Assembly (NCBI GenBank): GCA_012729145.1
Contig: JAAYDT010000027.1
Location: 1 to 53,294, forward strand
Origin: Synergistaceae bacterium
GTDB lineage: Bacteria; Synergistota; Synergistia; Synergistales; Thermovirgaceae
Reading direction: 5' to 3'
DNA: 53,294 bases
Shown here piece after piece: positions 1 through 35,411 of the stretch (the stretch's first letter is position 1; each line of letters starts with the position of its first letter). The notes beneath the pieces were generated by a model. It saw only the letters and a program-made list of their open reading frames with translations. It was not told where the DNA came from and did not search any database. A program made the position numbers and the translations under genes.

Positions 1-126
1 CGTTACTCACCCGTCCGCCACTATCCGTACATATCCAGCAAGCTTTCAATATACAGACCGTCCGACTTGCATGTGTTAAGCACGCCGCCAGCGTTCGTCC
101 TGAGCCAGGATCAAACTCTCCATAAA
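1..126 (-). rRNA. rrs: 16S ribosomal RNA, 5' end (partial)
   Basis: Read on the minus strand, this stretch contains the universal bacterial 16S start (GAGTTTGATCCTGGCTCAG) followed by GACGAACGCTGGCGGCGTG and CACATGCAAGTCGGACGG. It then runs through the first variable region to GGACGGGTGAGTAACG at the window edge. Only about the first 125 nucleotides are present; the rest of the gene lies to the left of the window. The exact mature 5' end is estimated, a few bases upstream of the conserved GAGAGTTTGATC. It is transcribed leftward from the promoter at 208-236. Confidence 0.97.
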
Positions 127-24410: not shown

Positions 24411-25385
24411 CTACCTGAAAAGGATGCTCACCGAATGATCGGAGTGGATCCTGCTGATGGCCTCTGCAAAAAGCGGTGCTATCGAAAGAACAGTTATCTT
24501 GTCGATCTTCTTTTCCTCCGACAGGGGTATGGTATTGGTCAGTACCACCTGGTGAATGGGCGACCTGCTGATCCTGTCTATGGCTGGACCCGAAAGGACG
24601 CCATGGGTCGCACAGGCGTATACCTTTTTGGCACCCCGTGCCAGAAGGGCTTCAGCGGCCTGAACCATCGTGCCTGCCGTATCTATGATGTCGTCAACGA
24701 GCACAGCTGTCTTGCCGGAAACGTCACCGATTATCTCCATAACCTCGCTGAAGTTGGCCACCTCGTGGGAGCGGCGCTTGTCAACTATTGCCAGGTCGGC
24801 GTTCAGGTGTACAGCAAATCGCCTTGCCCTGACCACACCCCCGATGTCAGGCGATATTACCACAAGCCTGTCCTGTTCCAGTTCCCTCTTGAGGGTATCC
24901 CTGAAATAGGCCGCCAGGAGCGGAATGCCTGTAAGATGGTCCACAGGGATGTCGAAAAAACCCTGGATCTGACCGGCGTGCAGATCGGCGGCCAGGACAC
25001 GGTCAGCACCGGCCTTCTCGATCAGGTTGGCCACCAGTTTCGCCGTGATCGGCTCCCGGGCCTTGGTCTTGCGATCCTGCCTGGCGTATCCAAAATAGGG
25101 GGTAACTACGTTAACCCTGTAGGCGGATGCCCTGCGCATGACATCGATCATTATCAGCAGTTCCATAAGATTCTCGTTAACAGGTTCACAGGTGGGTTGG
25201 ACAACGTAGACGTCAGCTCCCCTGACGCTCTCCTCCACGGAAACACCTATCTCGCCGTCAGAGAACCGGAAGAGGTTCGCTGTGGCTATCCCTACACCGA
25301 GGTTCTCGCAGATGGACCTGGTGAACTCGGGGTGGGCGCTCCCTGAAAAAATCTTAAGTTCCCTTAGTTTTGAGGCCACCTTCAT
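24411..25385 (-). CDS. prs: Ribose-phosphate pyrophosphokinase (PRPP synthetase)
   Basis: Makes PRPP from ribose-5-phosphate and ATP for nucleotide, histidine, tryptophan and NAD synthesis. Seen are FSGSAHPEFTRSICENLG, YFGYARQDRKTKAREPITAK, RVLAADLHAGQIQGFFDIPV and the PRPP-binding loop AVLVDDIIDTAGTMVQAAEAL. The start at 25385 (MKVASKLR) overlaps the glmU stop as ATGA with GGGAGGGG upstream. A frame running back to 25568 lies over the glmU 3' end and is rejected as a start. The 324-aa product has normal length. Confidence 0.97.
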   Translation of the reverse strand: MKVASKLRELKIFSGSAHPEFTRSICENLGVGIATANLFRFSDGEIGVSVEESVRGADVYVVQPTCEPVNENLMELLIMIDVMRRASAYRVNVVTPYFGYARQDRKTKAREPITAKLVANLIEKAGADRVLAADLHAGQIQGFFDIPVDHLTGIPLLAAYFRDTLKRELEQDRLVVISPDIGGVVRARRFAVHLNADLAIVDKRRSHEVANFSEVMEIIGDVSGKTAVLVDDIIDTAGTMVQAAEALLARGAKKVYACATHGVLSGPAIDRISRSPIHQVVLTNTIPLSEEKKIDKITVLSIAPLFAEAISRIHSDHSVSILFR

Positions 25386-26776
25386 TCCCCTCCCCCGTCG
25401 GGTTTCCTCTTCCTGCGAGCCCACCCTTCGATATTCTTCTGCCTTGCCCTTCCGATAGCCAGGGATTCGGCGGGGACATCCTTCGTGATGACCGAACCGG
25501 CTGCAGTACAGGACCTGTCGCCCAGCGAGACGGGCGCCACGAACATCGTATCGCTGCCGACGAAACAACCTTCCCCTATGGTGGTAGGGTTCTTCCTTTC
25601 GCCGTCATAGTTGCAGGTTATAGTGCCGGCTCCTATGTTGCTGCCCTTTCCCACCGTGGCATCCCCTATGTAGGAGAGGTGGGGAACCTTGACCCCTTCG
25701 CCGATCATGCTTTTCTTGATCTCGACGAACTTCCCTGCGAAGGCCCCTTCGCCCAGCTCCGATCCGTCCCTGACATAGGTGAACGGGCCAAGGACCGAAT
25801 TGTCCCCTGCCCTGCTGTCACATATCACGACATGACCTGACAGATGGACATTCTCGCCTAAAATGCTGTTCCTGACAATAGAATAACTTCCAAGCCTGGA
25901 ACGGCTGCCGATATCCGATCTGCCCCAAACCTGCACAAAGGGCTCTACCGTCACGTCATCACCGATGGACACACCCGGTCCGATCCAGACCGTCTCGGAA
26001 TCTACGCATTTGAGCCCGTTCTTCATATGACGGTCCAAAATACGTCTCCTCATGATCCTCGAGACCCTGTCAAGCTGAAGGGGGTCGTTAACGCCCTCCA
26101 TCTCGTCCGGGTCGGGGCAGACCATCATTCCCACTCTCTTGTCCTCTTCACAGAGGTTATGGATGACATCTGTAAGATAGAACTCTCCCTGGGAGTTTTC
26201 CCTTCCGATATTTTCAAGCTGTTCCAGAAGTGACCCGGTCCTGAAGATGTAGATCCCGCTGTTCACCCTGCCGCACTTTTTTTCGTGCTCTTTTGCATCC
26301 TTCTCCTCCACGATCCGGAATCCCTTCTCTGTATCGAGGACCCGTCCGTAACCGGTGGGATCAGAAGGTTCAAAGACAAGGAAAGTGCAGTCCTCATCAG
26401 CTTCAAGGTACCGTGAGTTCAACCTGGCAAGAGTCTCCCCTGTGATCATGGGAACGTCTCCCGGGATTATCATCACCCGTTCGAAACGGGATATCCATTT
26501 TCGGGCAGTGAAGACCGCATGGCCCGTTCCCAGCTGCTCCTGCTGGATAACCACCTCTGTGCCTGGCCAGGCGTTCTGCAGGTATTGGGAAACGGTCTCG
26601 CTACCGTGCCCCACCACCACCGCCCTCCCTGAGAAGTCGGGGGCATCCGTCGATCTCATGGGGTAGTAAAGGAGAGGTTCGTCCAGGAGTCTGAGAAGGA
26701 CCTTGGGGGTTTCGCTCTTCATCCGCATACCCTTGCCCGCGGCCAGTACCAGTACCCCTGTGCCGGGTATTGACAT
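25382..26776 (-). CDS. glmU: Bifunctional GlmU: GlcN-1-P acetyltransferase / GlcNAc-1-P uridylyltransferase
   Basis: Last two steps to UDP-GlcNAc. The N-terminal pyrophosphorylase has LAAGKGMRMKSETPKVLLRL, and the C-terminal half is a left-handed beta-helix acetyltransferase with NIGAGTITCNYDGERKNPTT and GSDTMFVAPVSLGDRS. The start at 26776 (MSIPGTG) is chosen by GAGGGATCGCC before the ATG; the longer frame to 26848 runs into the spacer. Length is 464 aa. GlmM and GlmS for the preceding steps are also in the window, at separate loci. Confidence 0.97.
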   Translation of the reverse strand: MSIPGTGVLVLAAGKGMRMKSETPKVLLRLLDEPLLYYPMRSTDAPDFSGRAVVVGHGSETVSQYLQNAWPGTEVVIQQEQLGTGHAVFTARKWISRFERVMIIPGDVPMITGETLARLNSRYLEADEDCTFLVFEPSDPTGYGRVLDTEKGFRIVEEKDAKEHEKKCGRVNSGIYIFRTGSLLEQLENIGRENSQGEFYLTDVIHNLCEEDKRVGMMVCPDPDEMEGVNDPLQLDRVSRIMRRRILDRHMKNGLKCVDSETVWIGPGVSIGDDVTVEPFVQVWGRSDIGSRSRLGSYSIVRNSILGENVHLSGHVVICDSRAGDNSVLGPFTYVRDGSELGEGAFAGKFVEIKKSMIGEGVKVPHLSYIGDATVGKGSNIGAGTITCNYDGERKNPTTIGEGCFVGSDTMFVAPVSLGDRSCTAAGSVITKDVPAESLAIGRARQKNIEGWARRKRKPDGGGE

Positions 26777-26854
26777 GGCGATCCCTCCCTGAAGTAAATT
26801 CACTCTAGATTTTAACACGCCCGGAGCACCTTCCGTCCGGGAACACACAACAAT

Positions 26855-27572: not shown

Positions 27573-27857
27573 ATGTTCCGGATCCCTCTGGCGCTGACGA
27601 TCGTCTTCTTTGCCTTGTCCATGGTCCTTGGAGTCATGATCTCCAGGGCCAAGAGTCGTCTGCCCCTTTCGGCTTTCTGGGGTTCCCTTCTGCTTTTTTT
27701 GCTATTTTCATCTTTTTCCCTGTACTCTTATGCCCCACTCTGGATCGCTATCGCACCCCTGATACCTGCAGCTATGGTCACCCTTCTGTTCAGTGTTTCC
27801 AGGAAGAACGAAAGGAACAGGTCTACGGGAGCGGAGGAGGACGATGAGAAAAGCTAG
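27573..27857 (+). CDS. Small membrane protein, unrecognised
   Basis: A 94-aa protein with two or three hydrophobic stretches (about 4-22, 33-52 and 56-73) and a short charged tail (RKNERNRSTGAEEDDEKS) probably in the cytosol. I do not recognise a family. Its start is 3 bp after the perR stop, and its last 14 bases overlap the next gene, so the three genes form one operon. The ribosome site is weak, suggesting translational coupling to perR. Confidence 0.7.
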   Translation: MFRIPLALTIVFFALSMVLGVMISRAKSRLPLSAFWGSLLLFLLFSSFSLYSYAPLWIAIAPLIPAAMVTLLFSVSRKNERNRSTGAEEDDEKS

Positions 27858-28986
27858 TGTCCCAGGATCACTAACGAGGACCATGGGAAGACCTCTCACC
27901 CTTCTGCTTTTCTCAGGGGCATTGCTTTTGGTGTTCCTGACCCCTCTGTTTCCCGCCTGTGCCGGGGTGCTTGACGAGGAATTCACCATTACCGTAGAAC
28001 TCACACCCGGCGGGAAGATCTCCGTCAGCCGCGCTGACGGACCTGATATCATCCTGGGCAGGGTGAAGGACCTTCCCGTCAACAGCAGGTGGCCCAGCTT
28101 TACCGCCTCTGCCTGGGGGCAGGAACAGACCGTCGTTGCCAGCGCTGTTAACGCCATCCACATCCTCCTCTCCGTTGAAAAGGACAAGGGCAGGACCGTA
28201 AGCCTCCTGCCCTGGGAGACCGTAGCCCCGGCAGCCGGCCCAGGTGCGGCGGTCGTGACCGATATAAAGGCAGGCCGGGCCATTTTCGGCGCCTGGTCCC
28301 CGCCGGTGGGCAGCAGGGTGATATTCGAGCGCAAGGACGGAGAACCCTACCGTGCAGAAGGCCCCCCGCGTCGTGGAGATATCATGAAGATCCTTGCAGT
28401 ACCCTCCCAATGCCCCTTCTTCGTTGAGTTGGAGAACCGCCCTGGCGGGCGAGTGACCGCATGGTACAGCGGCGGGCCGAATATCCTGGGCAGGGTGATC
28501 AGGCCCCTTGGAGGGACCGGGAGATTCGACGGGACGATCTTTCAGGATACGGGCAGAATAAGGGCGAACCACCCCGGGGTCATCGATGTCTGTACCTCTC
28601 CGGAAGGTCTGGTGGGCGGTTTCCAGATCATTCCTCTGGAACACGCCTTCTCCCGCGAGATGCTGGGAGCCTGGAAAATGACCCAGTGGATGATCGTGGG
28701 TCCTGCTGAAATAGGAGGGCCCAACCTTAAGGGATCAGGTCCTCTCTTTTCCGGAGGCCTTCTCCCCGGCCCGTCCAGGGGCGAGACACTATGGGACCTA
28801 TGGTCAACTTACGGCCGCAAACCACTAGTCCTGGTCAGGCTTGATGGAGGTCCCTGGTCCAAAATGCCTGCCTTCACAGGCAGGCAGGATCACGCCCTCG
28901 AGGACGTCACTCACGTCAGGATCTACTTCCCCTTCACCGCGGAGCCGCAGGGGGCAGGTCAAGCCCGCTCCCCCGCGGCGAGATGA
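27844..28986 (+). CDS. Secreted protein with two internal repeats, function unknown
   Basis: A 380-aa protein with a signal peptide (basic start, hydrophobic 18-36, SPase I-like site after PACA at 40). I recognise no family. Two diverged repeats are visible: about 51-107 (VELTPGGKIS, GPDIILGRV) and about 194-250 (VELENRPGGRVT, GPNILGRV, then RANHPGVIDV matching AVNAIHI). This suggests two copies of a beta-rich module. The cysteines at 39, 190 and 250 are few. The start at 27844 is chosen for GGAGGAGGACG before the ATG; the longer frame to 27793 would run over the previous gene. It is convergent with glmS (7-bp gap). Confidence 0.8.
   Translation: MRKASVPGSLTRTMGRPLTLLLFSGALLLVFLTPLFPACAGVLDEEFTITVELTPGGKISVSRADGPDIILGRVKDLPVNSRWPSFTASAWGQEQTVVASAVNAIHILLSVEKDKGRTVSLLPWETVAPAAGPGAAVVTDIKAGRAIFGAWSPPVGSRVIFERKDGEPYRAEGPPRRGDIMKILAVPSQCPFFVELENRPGGRVTAWYSGGPNILGRVIRPLGGTGRFDGTIFQDTGRIRANHPGVIDVCTSPEGLVGGFQIIPLEHAFSREMLGAWKMTQWMIVGPAEIGGPNLKGSGPLFSGGLLPGPSRGETLWDLWSTYGRKPLVLVRLDGGPWSKMPAFTGRQDHALEDVTHVRIYFPFTAEPQGAGQARSPAAR
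28865..28886 (-). terminator. Hairpin 3' of glmS, inside the convergent gene; possible terminator
   Basis: A perfect 8-bp stem (TGCCTGCC / GGCAGGCA, 6-base loop) lies about 110 bases past the glmS stop on the minus strand and is followed there by TTTTGG. It sits within the 3' coding end of the plus-strand secreted protein gene. It may end the glmS transcript, since the gap between the two convergent genes is only 7 bp. Coding constraint could also explain the symmetry. Confidence 0.35.
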
Positions 28987-28993
28987 AACCCCT

Positions 28994-30826
28994 CTACTCG
29001 ACGGTAACGCTCTTGGCGAGGTTGCGGGGCTGATCAATCTCTCTCCCCTTCAACAGGGCAATGTGGAAAGCCAGAAACTGCAAGGGGACCACCGAAAGGA
29101 AAGGGGTGAACTCCTCGTCTGTCCAGGGTATCTCTATCACCGATTCCACGTGTTGGGGAATGATCGTGTCCCCCTCTGTACAGACGGCAATAAGGGGAGC
29201 ATTCCTGGCCTTGGCCTCCTGAATATTGGACAGGGTCTTCTCGTAAAGACCATCCCTTGGGATCACCGCCAGGACGGGCAGATCAGGCTCCAGCAGTGCA
29301 ATGGGGCCGTGCTTCATCTCCCCTGCGGCGTAGGCCTCGGCGTGAATGTAGGATATCTCTTTTAACTTGAGGGCCCCCTCCAGGGCTATGGGGAAGGATA
29401 TCCCCCTGCCGATGAAGAGGAAGTTGCTCTTGGATGCATACCTTTTAGCCAGTTCCATTACCTCGTTCTCCCTTTCAAGGAGCAGTTCCACCTTGTAGGG
29501 AATATGGATCAGCTCGCTAATAAGTCTCTCCTCCTCGTCGGAGGGTAGGGTTCCTCTCAGCCTGCCGAGCTGGAGGGCCACCAGGAAGAGCGCCGCCATC
29601 TGCCCCGTAAAGGTCTTGGTGGCAGCCACGCCTATCTCCGGACCGGCCTTCAGGAGCATTACGCTGTGGACCTCCCTGGCCAATGTTGAGCCTCTCACGT
29701 TGGTGATGGCAAGGCAGTGCGCTCCGTCGGCCCTGGCCTTGCGCTGGGCCGCAAGGGTATCCGCCGTCTCGCCGGACTGGGAGACGAAAACAGCAAGCGT
29801 GGAAGGGTCGCACTTGATGTGTCGGTACCGGTACTCCGAGGCTACGTCAACTTTGATCTCCAGGTCGGTCCACTTCTCCAGGACCCTTTCCGCGACCAGG
29901 GCCGAGTAGTACGAGGTTCCGCAGGCCACCAAATGGACCTTATCCCACTTCGAGGCCATCTCCGCATCCCAGCCCAGTTCCTGGTCAACGGCGGTCCTTC
30001 CGTCGGCGATCCTCCCCTTCAGGGTGGATCGGAGTACCATGCCCTGCTCATGGATCTCCTTGAGCATGAAGTGTGAGAACCCCGACTTCTCCGTCATGGA
30101 AACGTCCCAATCCACGGTGAAGACTGTCTTCTCGACAGGGCAGCCGTTCTCGTCCCATACCCTAATGCCACCAAGGGATATCTCGGCTATGTCACCCTCC
30201 TCGAGGTACTGGATCTTCCTCGTGTAAGGAAGAAATGCCGGGACGTCCGAAGCGCAGAACGATTCTCCGTCGCCGGACCCCAAGACAAGGGGAGAACCTT
30301 TCCTTACGCAGTAGATCCTGTCAGGAAGATCCTGCTGTATCACCACAAGGGCAAAGGATCCTCTCAACCTCCCCTGCAGGTTGACGAGCGTCTCAAGGAT
30401 GTCCCCCGTCTGGGAGAATGATGTGGCGATAAGATGGACGACCACTTCAGTGTCCGTCTCGGAGAGGAACTCCACCCCTTCCCGTTCGAGTTCCTCCTTA
30501 AGCTCCATGTAGTTCTCTACGATCCCGTTATGGACAATGGCGAACTTGCCGCTTCCATCCCTGTGGGGATGGGCATTCACCTGGGTCACGCCGCCATGGG
30601 TCGCCCATCGGGTGTGTCCGATACCCTGGGTGGAGCAGGGGGATATCTCCTCGAGCATCCTCTCCAGGTCTGCAACCTTTCCGACCTCCTTGAGGATGAT
30701 CAGGCCATCGCCGGTCCTCAGTGCCAGACCGGCCGAGTCGTAACCGCGATATTCAAGCCTCTTGAGTCCATCGATCAGGACATCGGAGGCATTTCTTCTG
30801 CCGACATAACCTACTATCCCACACAT
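28994..30826 (-). CDS. glmS: Glutamine-fructose-6-phosphate aminotransferase (isomerizing)
   Basis: Makes glucosamine-6-phosphate from fructose-6-phosphate and glutamine, the committed step to amino sugars. The N-terminal class II glutamine amidotransferase starts with the nucleophile C2 (MCGIVGYVG), with HTRWATHG and GNVPNAHP-equivalent VNAHPHRDGSGKFAIVHNG. The two SIS isomerase domains have SQSGETADTL and the C-terminal ends LAKSVTVE. Length is 610 aa. Its leader holds a glmS ribozyme, 48 bases upstream of the ATG, so the message is probably cleaved when GlcN6P is abundant. The ribosome site is weak. Confidence 0.98.
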   Translation of the reverse strand: MCGIVGYVGRRNASDVLIDGLKRLEYRGYDSAGLALRTGDGLIILKEVGKVADLERMLEEISPCSTQGIGHTRWATHGGVTQVNAHPHRDGSGKFAIVHNGIVENYMELKEELEREGVEFLSETDTEVVVHLIATSFSQTGDILETLVNLQGRLRGSFALVVIQQDLPDRIYCVRKGSPLVLGSGDGESFCASDVPAFLPYTRKIQYLEEGDIAEISLGGIRVWDENGCPVEKTVFTVDWDVSMTEKSGFSHFMLKEIHEQGMVLRSTLKGRIADGRTAVDQELGWDAEMASKWDKVHLVACGTSYYSALVAERVLEKWTDLEIKVDVASEYRYRHIKCDPSTLAVFVSQSGETADTLAAQRKARADGAHCLAITNVRGSTLAREVHSVMLLKAGPEIGVAATKTFTGQMAALFLVALQLGRLRGTLPSDEEERLISELIHIPYKVELLLERENEVMELAKRYASKSNFLFIGRGISFPIALEGALKLKEISYIHAEAYAAGEMKHGPIALLEPDLPVLAVIPRDGLYEKTLSNIQEAKARNAPLIAVCTEGDTIIPQHVESVIEIPWTDEEFTPFLSVVPLQFLAFHIALLKGREIDQPRNLAKSVTVE

Positions 30827-30873
30827 TTTTGTATGGGCACCGCCTTTCTGATCTGGAAGAGAACGGATGCCGT

Positions 30874-31009
30874 CCCTTTTGTCCCGGAGATCACTCCCTG
30901 GTTTTGTGGGAACGGCTTCATGGCCTTACCGTTCAGGCCACCGGGGCATCCGCCGAATTATTCGATACTCCCCGGCCCTCGTCAACTGGCCCTGGCCAGT
31001 TCTGGCGCT
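30874..31009 (-). ncRNA. glmS self-cleaving ribozyme-riboswitch
   Basis: Read on the minus strand, the leader of glmS carries the conserved ribozyme core in order. The cleavage-site segment AGCGCCAGAAC comes first, with cleavage expected between A at 31009 and G at 31008. A 7-bp P1 stem follows (AACTGGC/GCCAGTT), then TTGACGAGG, GGGGAGTATCGA, and the hallmark TTCGGCGGATGCCCCGG. P3-region hairpins, AAAACC, a GGAG/CTCC stem and a terminal CAAAAGGG complete it. This matches the Bacillus and Thermoanaerobacter glmS ribozymes block by block. In that family GlcN6P acts as coenzyme for cleavage, and the cut mRNA is degraded. The 3' limit is approximate. Confidence 0.95.
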
Positions 31010-31048
31010 TGGTCAGCCGCCAACCTCTTTCTTACTCCCCCGACACTG

Positions 31049-31942
31049 TCACCTCCCCGTGACCCCGAGCCTTTCGAGCTCGGAGAGGATTATGCCCCGC
31101 AGGTCCTCTCGCTTCAGGGCCATGCCGAGAGTGGCCAGAAGCCAGCTCTCCATGGTACCGCAATCAAACCTCTCGCCCTTGTACATGACCCCCCAGACGG
31201 GTTCATCCTCGGAAAGGGACCTGATGGCGTCCGTGAGCTGGATCTCCCCTCCGGTACCCACACCTGAATTCCTGAGATAGCGGAATATTCCCGGAGAGAG
31301 CACGTACCGGCCCATCACGGCATACCGGCTCGGCTCACTGCCGGGTTCAGGCTTCTCAACAAGGTCCTCTATCCTGAAAAGGCCGTCCTCAACCTGTTCA
31401 CCCCTAATAATCCCGTACCTGAAGGTTTCCCCCGGAGGAACCTCTTCCAGGGCCACAACTGATCCACCAAGCCTCTGGTGGACCTGTACAAGCTGCCCGA
31501 GCACCGGAGGCGTTCCGGGAGGAGTTACCATTACGTCATCGGGGAGGATCACACCAAAATAGCAGCCGCTGCAGAAAGGCTCTCCGCACAGGACCGCGTG
31601 ACCCAGCCCTAGTGGTTCCGGCTGTCTGACATAGGCGAAATCTGCCATCTGGCTTATCTCTCTTACAAGCTGTGCAGAATCTGCCTTGCCCTTTCCGATG
31701 AGTATCTGCTCGAGCTCTATGGACCTGTCAAAGTAGTCCTCTATAGCCCTCTTGCCCCTGCCTGTGACGAAGACTATCTCACCGCACCCTGATCGGACGG
31801 CCTCCTCGACCCCGTACTGGATAAGGGGCCTGTCGATAAGGGGCAGCATCTCCTTGGGGATCTCCTTAGTGGCAGGCAGGAACCTGGTACCCATACCTGC
31901 GACGGGGAAGAGGCATTTCCTGACATCACCCGTCGTCAACAC
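31049..31942 (-). CDS. galU: UTP-glucose-1-phosphate uridylyltransferase
   Basis: Makes UDP-glucose for glycans and envelope sugars. The N-terminus LFPVAGMGTRFLPATKEIPK and IQYGVEEAVRSGCGEIVFVT are the GalU signatures, followed by GLGHAVLCGEPF and VEKPEPGSEPSRYAVMGRYV. Length is 297 aa. The GTG start at 31942 overlaps the glmM stop and has GAGGAGGTGAGGG just upstream; a TTG at 31939 is an alternative. The gap to glmS is about 220 bp and contains the ribozyme. Confidence 0.96.
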   Translation of the reverse strand: MLTTGDVRKCLFPVAGMGTRFLPATKEIPKEMLPLIDRPLIQYGVEEAVRSGCGEIVFVTGRGKRAIEDYFDRSIELEQILIGKGKADSAQLVREISQMADFAYVRQPEPLGLGHAVLCGEPFCSGCYFGVILPDDVMVTPPGTPPVLGQLVQVHQRLGGSVVALEEVPPGETFRYGIIRGEQVEDGLFRIEDLVEKPEPGSEPSRYAVMGRYVLSPGIFRYLRNSGVGTGGEIQLTDAIRSLSEDEPVWGVMYKGERFDCGTMESWLLATLGMALKREDLRGIILSELERLGVTGR

Positions 31943-33342
31943 CCCTCACCTCCTCTGAGATCCCGGACAAGGACCTCTTCGCCGCTTCTCCTTATCTCTT
32001 CGAAGAGCGCCTCCGATACGGACCTCAATACCGGATCTTCCCGCGCTTCAACGAGGACACGCACAAGAGGTTCCGTGCCAGAGGGTCTGACCAGGACCCT
32101 GCCCAGTTCACCCAGCTCCTGGCAGGCTCTTTCTATCGCCCCCCGCACCCCCGGGTGACCGAGAAAGGATTCCTTGTCAGTGGCATGGAAATTCTTCAGA
32201 ACCTGGGGATACCTCCCGAACCTGTCCACCAGGGTGTTGATATCCTCACCCAACCTTGAGCATGCCGAGAGGAACAGAAGACCGGAGCTGAGCCCGTCGC
32301 CGGTGGGGAAGAAATCGCTTGCGATAACGTGCCCCGACTGCTCTCCTCCAAGAGAAGAACCCGAGGATCGCATGGCATCGAGCACATACCTGTCGCCCAC
32401 GGGACAGCGCGTCAGGTGGATACCGTCCTGTGCGAACTTCTCCTCCAGGGCTTTGTTGCTCATCACTGTCGCCACTACCCCGTTCACCAGCCTGCCCTCG
32501 CCATGAAGCCACCTTCCAAGGACCCAGAGGATGATATCTCCGTCGATGATCCTCCCCTTGGTATCGACGAAGAGAACCCTGTCAGCATCGCCGTCAAGGG
32601 CCATCCCCAGCGAATGTCCCCCTGAAAGGACTGCAGACGCCACATTCTCCATGTGGATGACCCCGCAACCGTCGTTGATGTTGTTTCTTTCGGGTCTGTC
32701 GGATATGATGATGGCCCTGCCGAAGCAGCGCCGGAAGATCATGGCTGCAGCCTCCGAAGCCGCCCCGTGGGCACAGTCCACTACGATAGAAAGTTCCTGA
32801 TCTACCCCGAAGCCGCAAGTCCTGACCACGTGTTCGGTGTACTCCGAAAGAATCCCGGTCCTCGGGGCGACCGATCCCACTGACGAACCTGTGGGTCTCC
32901 AATCGTCGAAGACCACGTCAGCCAGATACTCCTCGATCTCCGCCTCGTCGTCGTCGCTCAGTTTGCAGCCGTCCCTTCCTAGGAACTTGATACCGTTGTA
33001 TTCGAAGGTGTTATGGGAGGCACTTACAACCGCACCACCGTCGCAGGATAGTTTTCTGACGGCGAAGCTTACACCTGGAGTGGGGATCACCCCCAGGGAG
33101 ACCACTTCTGCTCCAGCGGAGAGGAATCCCGAGACAAGGGCCATTTCGATCATGGGTCCTGAACGCCTTGTGTCCCTCCCGACGGCAATGACCGGGCGGG
33201 ATACGCCTCTTTCGATAAGGAAAAGTGCATAGGACCTGCCCAGGCGAAGTGCCATTTCGGGGGTCATAAGCCCACGGTTGGCCACATCCCTTACGCCGTC
33301 GGTCCCGAAGAGACACCGGCATTTTCTGGAAGTTTCCTGCAT
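31936..33342 (-). CDS. glmM: Phosphoglucosamine mutase
   Basis: Converts GlcN-6-P to GlcN-1-P. The N-terminal LFGTDGVRDVANRGLMTPE is diagnostic. The active-site phosphoserine lies in VVSASHNTFEYNGIKF (S109), where the usual SASHNP reads SASHNT. The metal loop DGDADRVLFVD and the C-terminal RPSGTEPLVRVLVEA are intact. The start at 33342 (MQETSRK) is supported by AAAGAGGTG. The 468-aa product is slightly longer than the usual 450. Gene order cdaA-cdaR-glmM is the classic c-di-AMP operon, and GlmM is known to bind and restrain CdaA in Firmicutes. Confidence 0.97.
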   Translation of the reverse strand: MQETSRKCRCLFGTDGVRDVANRGLMTPEMALRLGRSYALFLIERGVSRPVIAVGRDTRRSGPMIEMALVSGFLSAGAEVVSLGVIPTPGVSFAVRKLSCDGGAVVSASHNTFEYNGIKFLGRDGCKLSDDDEAEIEEYLADVVFDDWRPTGSSVGSVAPRTGILSEYTEHVVRTCGFGVDQELSIVVDCAHGAASEAAAMIFRRCFGRAIIISDRPERNNINDGCGVIHMENVASAVLSGGHSLGMALDGDADRVLFVDTKGRIIDGDIILWVLGRWLHGEGRLVNGVVATVMSNKALEEKFAQDGIHLTRCPVGDRYVLDAMRSSGSSLGGEQSGHVIASDFFPTGDGLSSGLLFLSACSRLGEDINTLVDRFGRYPQVLKNFHATDKESFLGHPGVRGAIERACQELGELGRVLVRPSGTEPLVRVLVEAREDPVLRSVSEALFEEIRRSGEEVLVRDLRGGEGC

Positions 33343-33370
33343 CGGAACACCTCTTTCCCTGCGCCCTGAC

Positions 33371-34582
33371 TCACTCGGTAAGCGCATAGACCGTTACGTT
33401 GGGTGGATCTATATCGGCCAGTGAGACCCCCTTGGAACGAAGGGTTGTCTTGACCGGCACGGTTATCTTCTGGGAGACCAGGTTCGTTACGTCCACGTAG
33501 ACATCGACCGGACTACCCTTGACCTCGGCTGCATCAAGGTCTGACGGTGATCCTTCAAGGATCACGCTAACCTCGGAGGGTTCGACCCTCCAGCCGGGGT
33601 ATATGCTTCTACCGGAAAGCCTGACGGGCACCTTGGCATAGAGTCTCCTTTCGGTCCTTCCCGCGAGCAGTATCCTCACCCGCACCGATGGGTCTTCAAC
33701 GACCTGAACGTCATCAGCAGGATCTTCGACCGTGACGACCCTGGTGACGTCCGCCGAAAGCCCCGTTATGTCCAGGGGGCCAAGAAAGACCTGTTCGATC
33801 CTTTCGATAGACTCAAGAGGCCCCTGGATAGTCAGCTCCGGGGGGTCCACGACCACGGCTTCCACCTGGAAATCCTTCCCCGGATCGCCCTTCAGTTCCA
33901 CCCTGACAGGAACGACCCTCCTGGGGAAACCTCTGACCAGGCTGTAGGAGAGATCAGCCTCGGCAGGCTCTATCATAAAGGGAGTTCTCTGGTCCCTGTC
34001 GGGGGATGACACAATGGGCAGTGTGAGTTCCTTCTCCTGAAGCAGCTGTTCCAGGGTTGGGACCACCCAGACATTCTCCAGGGAAGAGAGCAAGTGTTCA
34101 GGCCCCTTGACGGTAACCTCCATGGGAGCGACCCTCTGCTCCTCAAGCCGGTATCCCGGAGGAAGGCCATCGGGCACAAGCAACCTGACAGACAGCACCC
34201 TGGATCCCAGTCGGGTAAGGTCAAGGTCGACAAAGGGCGGAGATACCTCGACCAACCTCAGTCCTGAGGGAAGTATCGCCTGGACGGGCCTGCGATGAGA
34301 TCCAGGTCCCAGGCCCTTGAGATCTATCTGGGACGCGATGGTTTCCGTCAGGGAGAAGGCCGTCTCCCTCGTTCCCGATACCTGGATGTCCACTTCACGG
34401 ACCCCGCTGGATACGGACATGTCCACAGGGACGTTGAGGAACTCAAGAGGTACCGTAACAGTCCTTACTATCTCGGTGCCCCGGTCAGAGGCCAGGTAGA
34501 ACCAGACCAGCACAGCCACCAGAACTGAAACCACCTTGAGGAAGAGCCTGGAGGACAGGAGACGGTCAATCGATCTCATCAT
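33371..34582 (-). CDS. cdaR: YbbR-domain protein CdaR, regulator of diadenylate cyclase
   Basis: Extracytoplasmic partner of CdaA. One N-terminal membrane anchor (about 10-30, LFLKVVSVLVAVLVWFYLAS) is followed by several YbbR repeats of roughly 80 residues, recognised by phrases such as VTVPLEFLNVPVDM, EVDIQVSGTRE, PPELTIQGPLESI, PSEVSVILEG and ITVPVKTTL. The start at 34582 or 34579 (two adjacent ATGs) overlaps the cdaA stop, with GGGAGGGG upstream. A longer frame to 34660 lies inside cdaA. Length is 403 aa. Effect on CdaA (positive or negative) differs between species and is not visible here. Confidence 0.9.
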   Translation of the reverse strand: MMRSIDRLLSSRLFLKVVSVLVAVLVWFYLASDRGTEIVRTVTVPLEFLNVPVDMSVSSGVREVDIQVSGTRETAFSLTETIASQIDLKGLGPGSHRRPVQAILPSGLRLVEVSPPFVDLDLTRLGSRVLSVRLLVPDGLPPGYRLEEQRVAPMEVTVKGPEHLLSSLENVWVVPTLEQLLQEKELTLPIVSSPDRDQRTPFMIEPAEADLSYSLVRGFPRRVVPVRVELKGDPGKDFQVEAVVVDPPELTIQGPLESIERIEQVFLGPLDITGLSADVTRVVTVEDPADDVQVVEDPSVRVRILLAGRTERRLYAKVPVRLSGRSIYPGWRVEPSEVSVILEGSPSDLDAAEVKGSPVDVYVDVTNLVSQKITVPVKTTLRSKGVSLADIDPPNVTVYALTE

Positions 34583-35411
34583 TCTCGGTTCCCCTCCCTG
34601 AAAAGACCGAGCCCAGCCTCTCCTTGACACCCTCCATGGCCGATCCCGTCCCTGTCGCATGGGCGAAGTAGTGCATGAGGAGCCTTCTTATCTGCCCCTC
34701 CTTCAGCTCCCTTGAAAGATGGCCGTTGATCGCAAGGGCGACCTCTCCCCGCTCCTCGGAAACTACCAGCGCCATGGCATCGGAAACCTCCGTTACGCCC
34801 AGGGCGGCACGATGCCGGGTCCCTATCCACCTTGAAAGGTTGCTGTTCTCTGTCAGGGGCAGGTAACACGCGGCGGCGATAACGCTCTGCCTGTCAAGAA
34901 TGGTCGCACCGTCGTGGAGGGGGTTCCCCGGCCAGAAGATGGAGACCAGAAGATCCTGGGATATCTCTCCCCCTATCTGGACGGCGGATCTCCATATATC
35001 CTTCAGGCCTGTGTCCTTCTGGAAGACCAGGATAGCTCCTATCTTACGGCTCTGAAGGAAGAGGAGAGCCCGGGTTATCTCGTCGGTCAGCTGGGCCGCC
35101 CTCTCCTCTGCCTGACGGCGCCTCCAGATGTTGCCCCGTCCGAGCTCCTCGAGCATCCTCCTTATCTCGGGCTGGAAGACGATAGGGATGGCTATGATGA
35201 AGACCCCCAGCATCCTTCCCAGGATCCATGAGAGTGCGGCAAGCTTCATCAGCCGTGCGGTTGCGAAGAGGAGGCCGATGACGAAAAGCCCCTTAACAAG
35301 CTGCATGGCACGGGTATCCACAAGCAGGAGAAGCAGCCTGTAGACAATAAATGCGATTATCGCGATATCAATGAAATCCTGCCAGCGTATGGACTCAAGG
35401 ATCCCGGACAA
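34566..35411 (-). CDS. cdaA: Diadenylate cyclase CdaA
   Basis: Makes c-di-AMP from two ATP. Three N-terminal membrane helices (about 12-32, 38-53 and 62-80) precede the DAC domain, which carries both catalytic motifs: HDGAT (D167-G168-A169) and GTRHRAALG (R199-H200-R201). The C-terminal 30 residues form a charged tail. The start is TTG at 35411, with AGGAGT seven bases upstream. Length is 281 aa, typical. It is cotranscribed with cdaR and glmM; the likely degrading enzyme PgpH is at 14299-16350. Confidence 0.96.
   Translation of the reverse strand: MSGILESIRWQDFIDIAIIAFIVYRLLLLLVDTRAMQLVKGLFVIGLLFATARLMKLAALSWILGRMLGVFIIAIPIVFQPEIRRMLEELGRGNIWRRRQAEERAAQLTDEITRALLFLQSRKIGAILVFQKDTGLKDIWRSAVQIGGEISQDLLVSIFWPGNPLHDGATILDRQSVIAAACYLPLTENSNLSRWIGTRHRAALGVTEVSDAMALVVSEERGEVALAINGHLSRELKEGQIRRLLMHYFAHATGTGSAMEGVKERLGSVFSGRGTENDEID

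Follow-up and report, generated by a model that had tools for sequence, protein, structure and literature searches.

In the Bacillus subtilis operon cdaA-cdaR-glmM-glmS, a ribozyme lies in front of glmS, and a point mutation in the ribozyme core raises the level of glmS mRNA more than 50-fold (PMC6171935). The known route of action runs from GlcN6P-assisted cleavage to decay of the 3' fragment by RNase J1, and mutants at G1, C2, G3, A27, C28, G56 and G57 have been used as non-cleaving controls (PMC7125110). Here we analysed a 53,294-nucleotide stretch of DNA (the window), in which an earlier note had recognised a glmS ribozyme ahead of glmS. The element is like the RF00234 ribozymes of Bacillus subtilis, B. 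anthracis and Thermoanaerobacter tengcongensis in its full-length match, its identical catalytic core, its P1, P2, P2.1, P2.2, P3, P3.1 and P4 and its position before glmS, and it differs from them in host phylum, in its G+C-rich helices and in a short P1. When compared with the operon of B. subtilis (PMC6171935), the locus shares the order and direction of cdaA, ybbR/cdaR, glmM and ribozyme-glmS, but galU stands between glmM and the ribozyme, as it does in most ribozyme-bearing Synergistota, and genes for pyruvate kinase, a NUDIX protein, a TIM-barrel protein and an ornithine racemase-like protein precede cdaA. The sequence and structure of the element, its conservation, its gene context and the RNase J gene of its host are direct observations of this analysis. 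The element is an ordinary member of its class in a typical setting, and the mechanism itself is known.

A full-length glmS ribozyme in the leader of glmS

When Infernal was run with the Rfam covariance model RF00234, as had been proposed, the minus strand at 30860-31020 matched the model from end to end (1-167/167) with 89.0 bits (E 2.8e-19), compared to a gathering score of 37 bits. A whole-genome search of the 1.78-Mb draft genome returned this one copy, before glmS. All three of the conserved core motifs read earlier, AGCGCCAGAAC, TTGACGAGG and TTCGGCGGATGCCCC, were found in the correct order, and the RF00234 alignment places the predicted cleavage site exactly where it had been put (Table 1). 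On sequence grounds, the leader of glmS is a standard glmS ribozyme and a member of RF00234.

Table 1. Features of the ribozyme and of the genes around it, in window coordinates
Feature	Position	Strand	Evidence
glmS ribozyme, A(-1) to P3.1 end	30861..31009	-	full-length RF00234 match, 89 bits
Predicted self-cleavage site, A(-1) 31009 / G1 31008	31008..31009	-	RF00234 alignment; G1 unchanged among 28 Synergistota copies
Helix P1, tetraloop about 30994-30991	30984..31001	-	RF00234 structure line; fold
Catalytic core with P2.2 and P2.1	30950..31008	-	PMC7125110 numbering applied to window sequence
P2.2	31007-31004 and 31002 with 30951-30955	-	PMC7125110 numbering
P2.1	30981-30979 with 30963-30965	-	PMC7125110 numbering
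Helix P3	30921..30940	-	RF00234 match
P3.1 5' strand GAACGG, P3 loop	30929..30934	-	6-bp complement of 30866-30861; covaries, 28 sequences
P4 domain	30869..30916	-	RF00234 match
P3.1 3' strand CCGTTC, tail after P4	30861..30866	-	perfect pairing with 30934-30929
glmS, glutamine--fructose-6-phosphate transaminase, 610 aa, MCGIVG start	28994..30826	-	TIGR01135 799 bits, cut-off 418
galU-like UTP--glucose-1-phosphate uridylyltransferase	31049..31942	-	TIGR01099 326.5 bits, cut-off 326.8
glmM	31936..33387	-	TIGR01455 over cut-off
ybbR/cdaR	33371..34660	-	PF07949
cdaA diadenylate cyclase	34566..35411	-	TIGR00159 over cut-off

The published core numbering (PMC7125110) puts G1 at 31008, C2 at 31007, G3 at 31006, A27 at 30982, C28 at 30981, G56 at 30951 and G57 at 30950, and the window ribozyme carries the wild-type base at all seven of the sites used for non-cleaving controls. 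In the same numbering (PMC7125110), every pair of the P2.1 and P2.2 double pseudoknot is present in the window sequence. Among 28 Synergistota copies, the bases of the core, P2.1 and P2.2 vary little or not at all, and for that reason covariation is no test of the double pseudoknot. A pseudoknot-free fold (z -2.7) recovered P1 and P3; folding of this kind cannot test the core.

A further pairing joins the loop of P3 to the tail after P4 (GAACGG with CCGTTC), which we take to be P3.1, as named and placed in the crystal structures. This helix provides an independent test because the Rfam consensus structure omits it. Loop and tail co-vary, giving 24 different helices among 28 relatives, and the mean helix score was 16.6, compared to 12.7 +/- 0.57 for randomly re-paired loops and tails (none of the 500 shuffles reached the observed mean), although kinship among the 28 Synergistota sequences inflates such tests. 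The number of distinct helices speaks for a real pairing. Since the 3' strand of P3.1 lies after P4, the functional element ends at about 30861 and not at 30874, leaving 34 bases to the ATG of glmS. The extent of 30874-31009 given in the earlier note was therefore right at its 5' cleavage end, while its 3' end fell short, leaving out the last part of P4 and the 3' half of P3.1, and its spacing of 48 bases to the start codon was too long.

Operon setting and proposed action of the ribozyme

The start codon of glmS had been chosen correctly: the ATG at 30826-30824 opens MCGIVG, in which the catalytic Cys adjoins the start Met, and TIGR01135 identifies the product as GlmS. Inspection of the region near this start revealed no strong Shine-Dalgarno sequence. 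The minus-strand order is pyruvate kinase, NUDIX, TIM-barrel, ornithine racemase-like, cdaA, ybbR, glmM, galU, ribozyme and glmS, and the run from pyruvate kinase to glmS is co-directional, with neighbours that overlap or are separated by short gaps. The stop codon of galU lies 39 bases from A(-1), and because a scan of this gap found no credible promoter or terminator, we infer that galU and glmS are co-transcribed; alternatively, a promoter within galU may drive glmS. The promoter scan gave three matches compared to 2.5 expected from shuffling, which is chance level. The best sigma-70-like match, TTGACG-17-AATAAT at 30985-30957, was rejected as a promoter, as it is invariant ribozyme core.

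The glmU gene (25382-26848) belongs to a separate unit beyond genes on the opposite strand. Convergent with glmS is a 397-aa ORF (27793-28986, plus strand) that has no Pfam match, ends 7 bases from the glmS stop and may be a real gene. At the edge of the window (positions 1-126, minus strand), a 16S rRNA gene is interrupted by the contig end.

We propose that accumulated GlcN6P, the product of GlmS, would bind the preformed pocket of the ribozyme and serve as its cofactor, that the GlcN6P-bound RNA would self-cleave between A31009 and G31008, and that the glmS message freed with a 5'-OH would then be degraded by the RNase J of the host. The cdaA-ybbR-glmM-galU RNA would be spared after the cut; release of glmS and sparing of the upstream part would both follow because the ribozyme has galU before it and glmS after it in a run of genes read in one direction. 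Cleavage, its dependence on GlcN6P, RNase J decay and co-transcription are expected here by analogy with known members. RNase J, the enzyme that breaks down the cleaved message in B. subtilis, is encoded by the host (TIGR00649, 537.7 bits, cut-off 400) and in 60 of the 61 Synergistota genomes sampled. Overall, we hold it as nearly certain that this is a bona fide RF00234 ribozyme, inherited within Synergistota, whose GlcN6P-triggered cut would lead to RNase J decay of the glmS message.

The mid-operon position means that the cut would also create a new 3' end on the upstream message, and the element might have kept its fold and its GlcN6P binding while acting mainly in another way, for instance by processing the upstream message or by controlling translation, instead of through RNase J decay of glmS. 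We consider this improbable, as RNase J occurs almost throughout the phylum, the glmS cistron follows immediately on the 3' side of the cut and the arrangement of the genes matches that of B. subtilis (PMC6171935). The earlier suggestion that the whole UDP-GlcNAc pathway would come under feedback holds for flux at the first step and fails for co-regulation of glmM and glmU. Cleavage would affect glmS alone, the only gene downstream of the cut, since glmM lies on its 5' side and glmU belongs to a different unit.

Distribution in Synergistota

The GlmS protein is 98% identical to that of Synergistales bacterium 58_81 and 69-90% identical to those of Thermovirgaceae and other Synergistota. These nearest relatives bear out the assignment of the host to Synergistota and, by GlmS sequence, make it Thermovirgaceae-like. 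Of 188 Synergistota genomes, 63 had an RF00234 match above the cut-off, one copy each; given the strict search filters, this count is a lower bound. All 10 genomes of the host's family carry the ribozyme, and it is present in ten families of the order. In a GlmS tree built by a quick method, the order's own proteins formed one clade (support 100) that contains all of the ribozyme carriers. The distribution had been called patchy, which fits insofar as the ribozyme is missing in defined lineages; in the main GlmS clade of the order, however, it is native. The element is thus native and widespread in Synergistota and not a stray case.

McCown et al. reportedly placed the class outside Firmicutes, in Deinococcus-Thermus, in 2011, and Deinobacterium chartae, included as a control, scored over the RF00234 cut-off. 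A search of the accessible literature for the glmS ribozyme in Synergistetes found no report. The description of the element as lying outside the classic Firmicutes setting is accurate for the host phylum, but not as a novelty, since the class was already known outside Firmicutes and the locus layout is classic. A Candidatus Sumerlaeota MAG provides another non-Firmicutes case, with a full-length RF00234 match of 101.5 bits before glmS (L040:2822-2977).

In favour of a recent horizontal import from Firmicutes, it is there that the class is best known, and B. subtilis has the same locus plan; such an import is nonetheless very improbable, given that all ribozyme-bearing GlmS proteins stand in that single Synergistota clade, apart from every Bacillota sequence, and that the ribozyme spans ten families. 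An ancient transfer may have preceded the diversification of the order. Least credible of all is a decayed, inactive relic, for although the window copy, at 89 bits, is outscored by other Synergistota copies, which reach 120.7 bits, all family-invariant core positions are intact and P1, P2, P3, P3.1 and P4 all pair.

Retention and loss of the ribozyme across glmS loci

The gene neighbourhood was compared between 25 ribozyme-bearing and 21 ribozyme-free glmS loci, some of which are near copies and all of which are related by descent. The ribozyme-bearing glmS adjoined glmM and/or galU at 24 of 25 loci, compared to 1 of 21 for the ribozyme-free gene, and a search of the 21 ribozyme-free Synergistota loci found no ribozyme remnants, even when the Infernal filters were relaxed and matches up to E = 1 were admitted. 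In the GlmS tree, 16 ribozyme-free genes formed a single branch inside the order's clade (support 95), and four ribozyme-free Synergistota proteins branched with Clostridia. These Clostridia-branching proteins (L117, L118, L119 and L120), which have no ribozyme and are 43-46% identical to the window GlmS, are apparent gene replacements. In two ribozyme-free single-contig genomes (G138 and G039), glmM and glmS are about 0.9-1.3 Mb apart. The ribozyme-free glmS genes are relocated or Bacillota-type. One ribozyme-bearing glmS (L142, genome G011) lies away from glmM and galU and has apparently been relocated along with its ribozyme; therefore, relocation does not force ribozyme loss.

Outside the order, locus L114 (genome G002) has galU followed directly by glmS with no ribozyme match, representing either the state before gain or a loss. 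At another locus (L133:5260-5744, minus strand), two tandem Moco riboswitch matches precede, by about 3 kb, a glmS that lies on the same strand and lacks the ribozyme.

A tentative reading, to which we give somewhat less than even credence, is that the Synergistota ribozyme acts as a processing site inside one transcript, separating glmS from the part for c-di-AMP synthase, GlmM and GalU, and was lost when glmS left that locus or gave way to a Bacillota-type gene, so that operon membership, and not only metabolite feedback, would select for its retention. The pattern of loss with relocation is the only part that a specialist might follow up; in it, the phylum offers a natural series, from loci that keep the ribozyme to those without it after relocation or gene replacement, for studying what retains a metabolite-sensing ribozyme.
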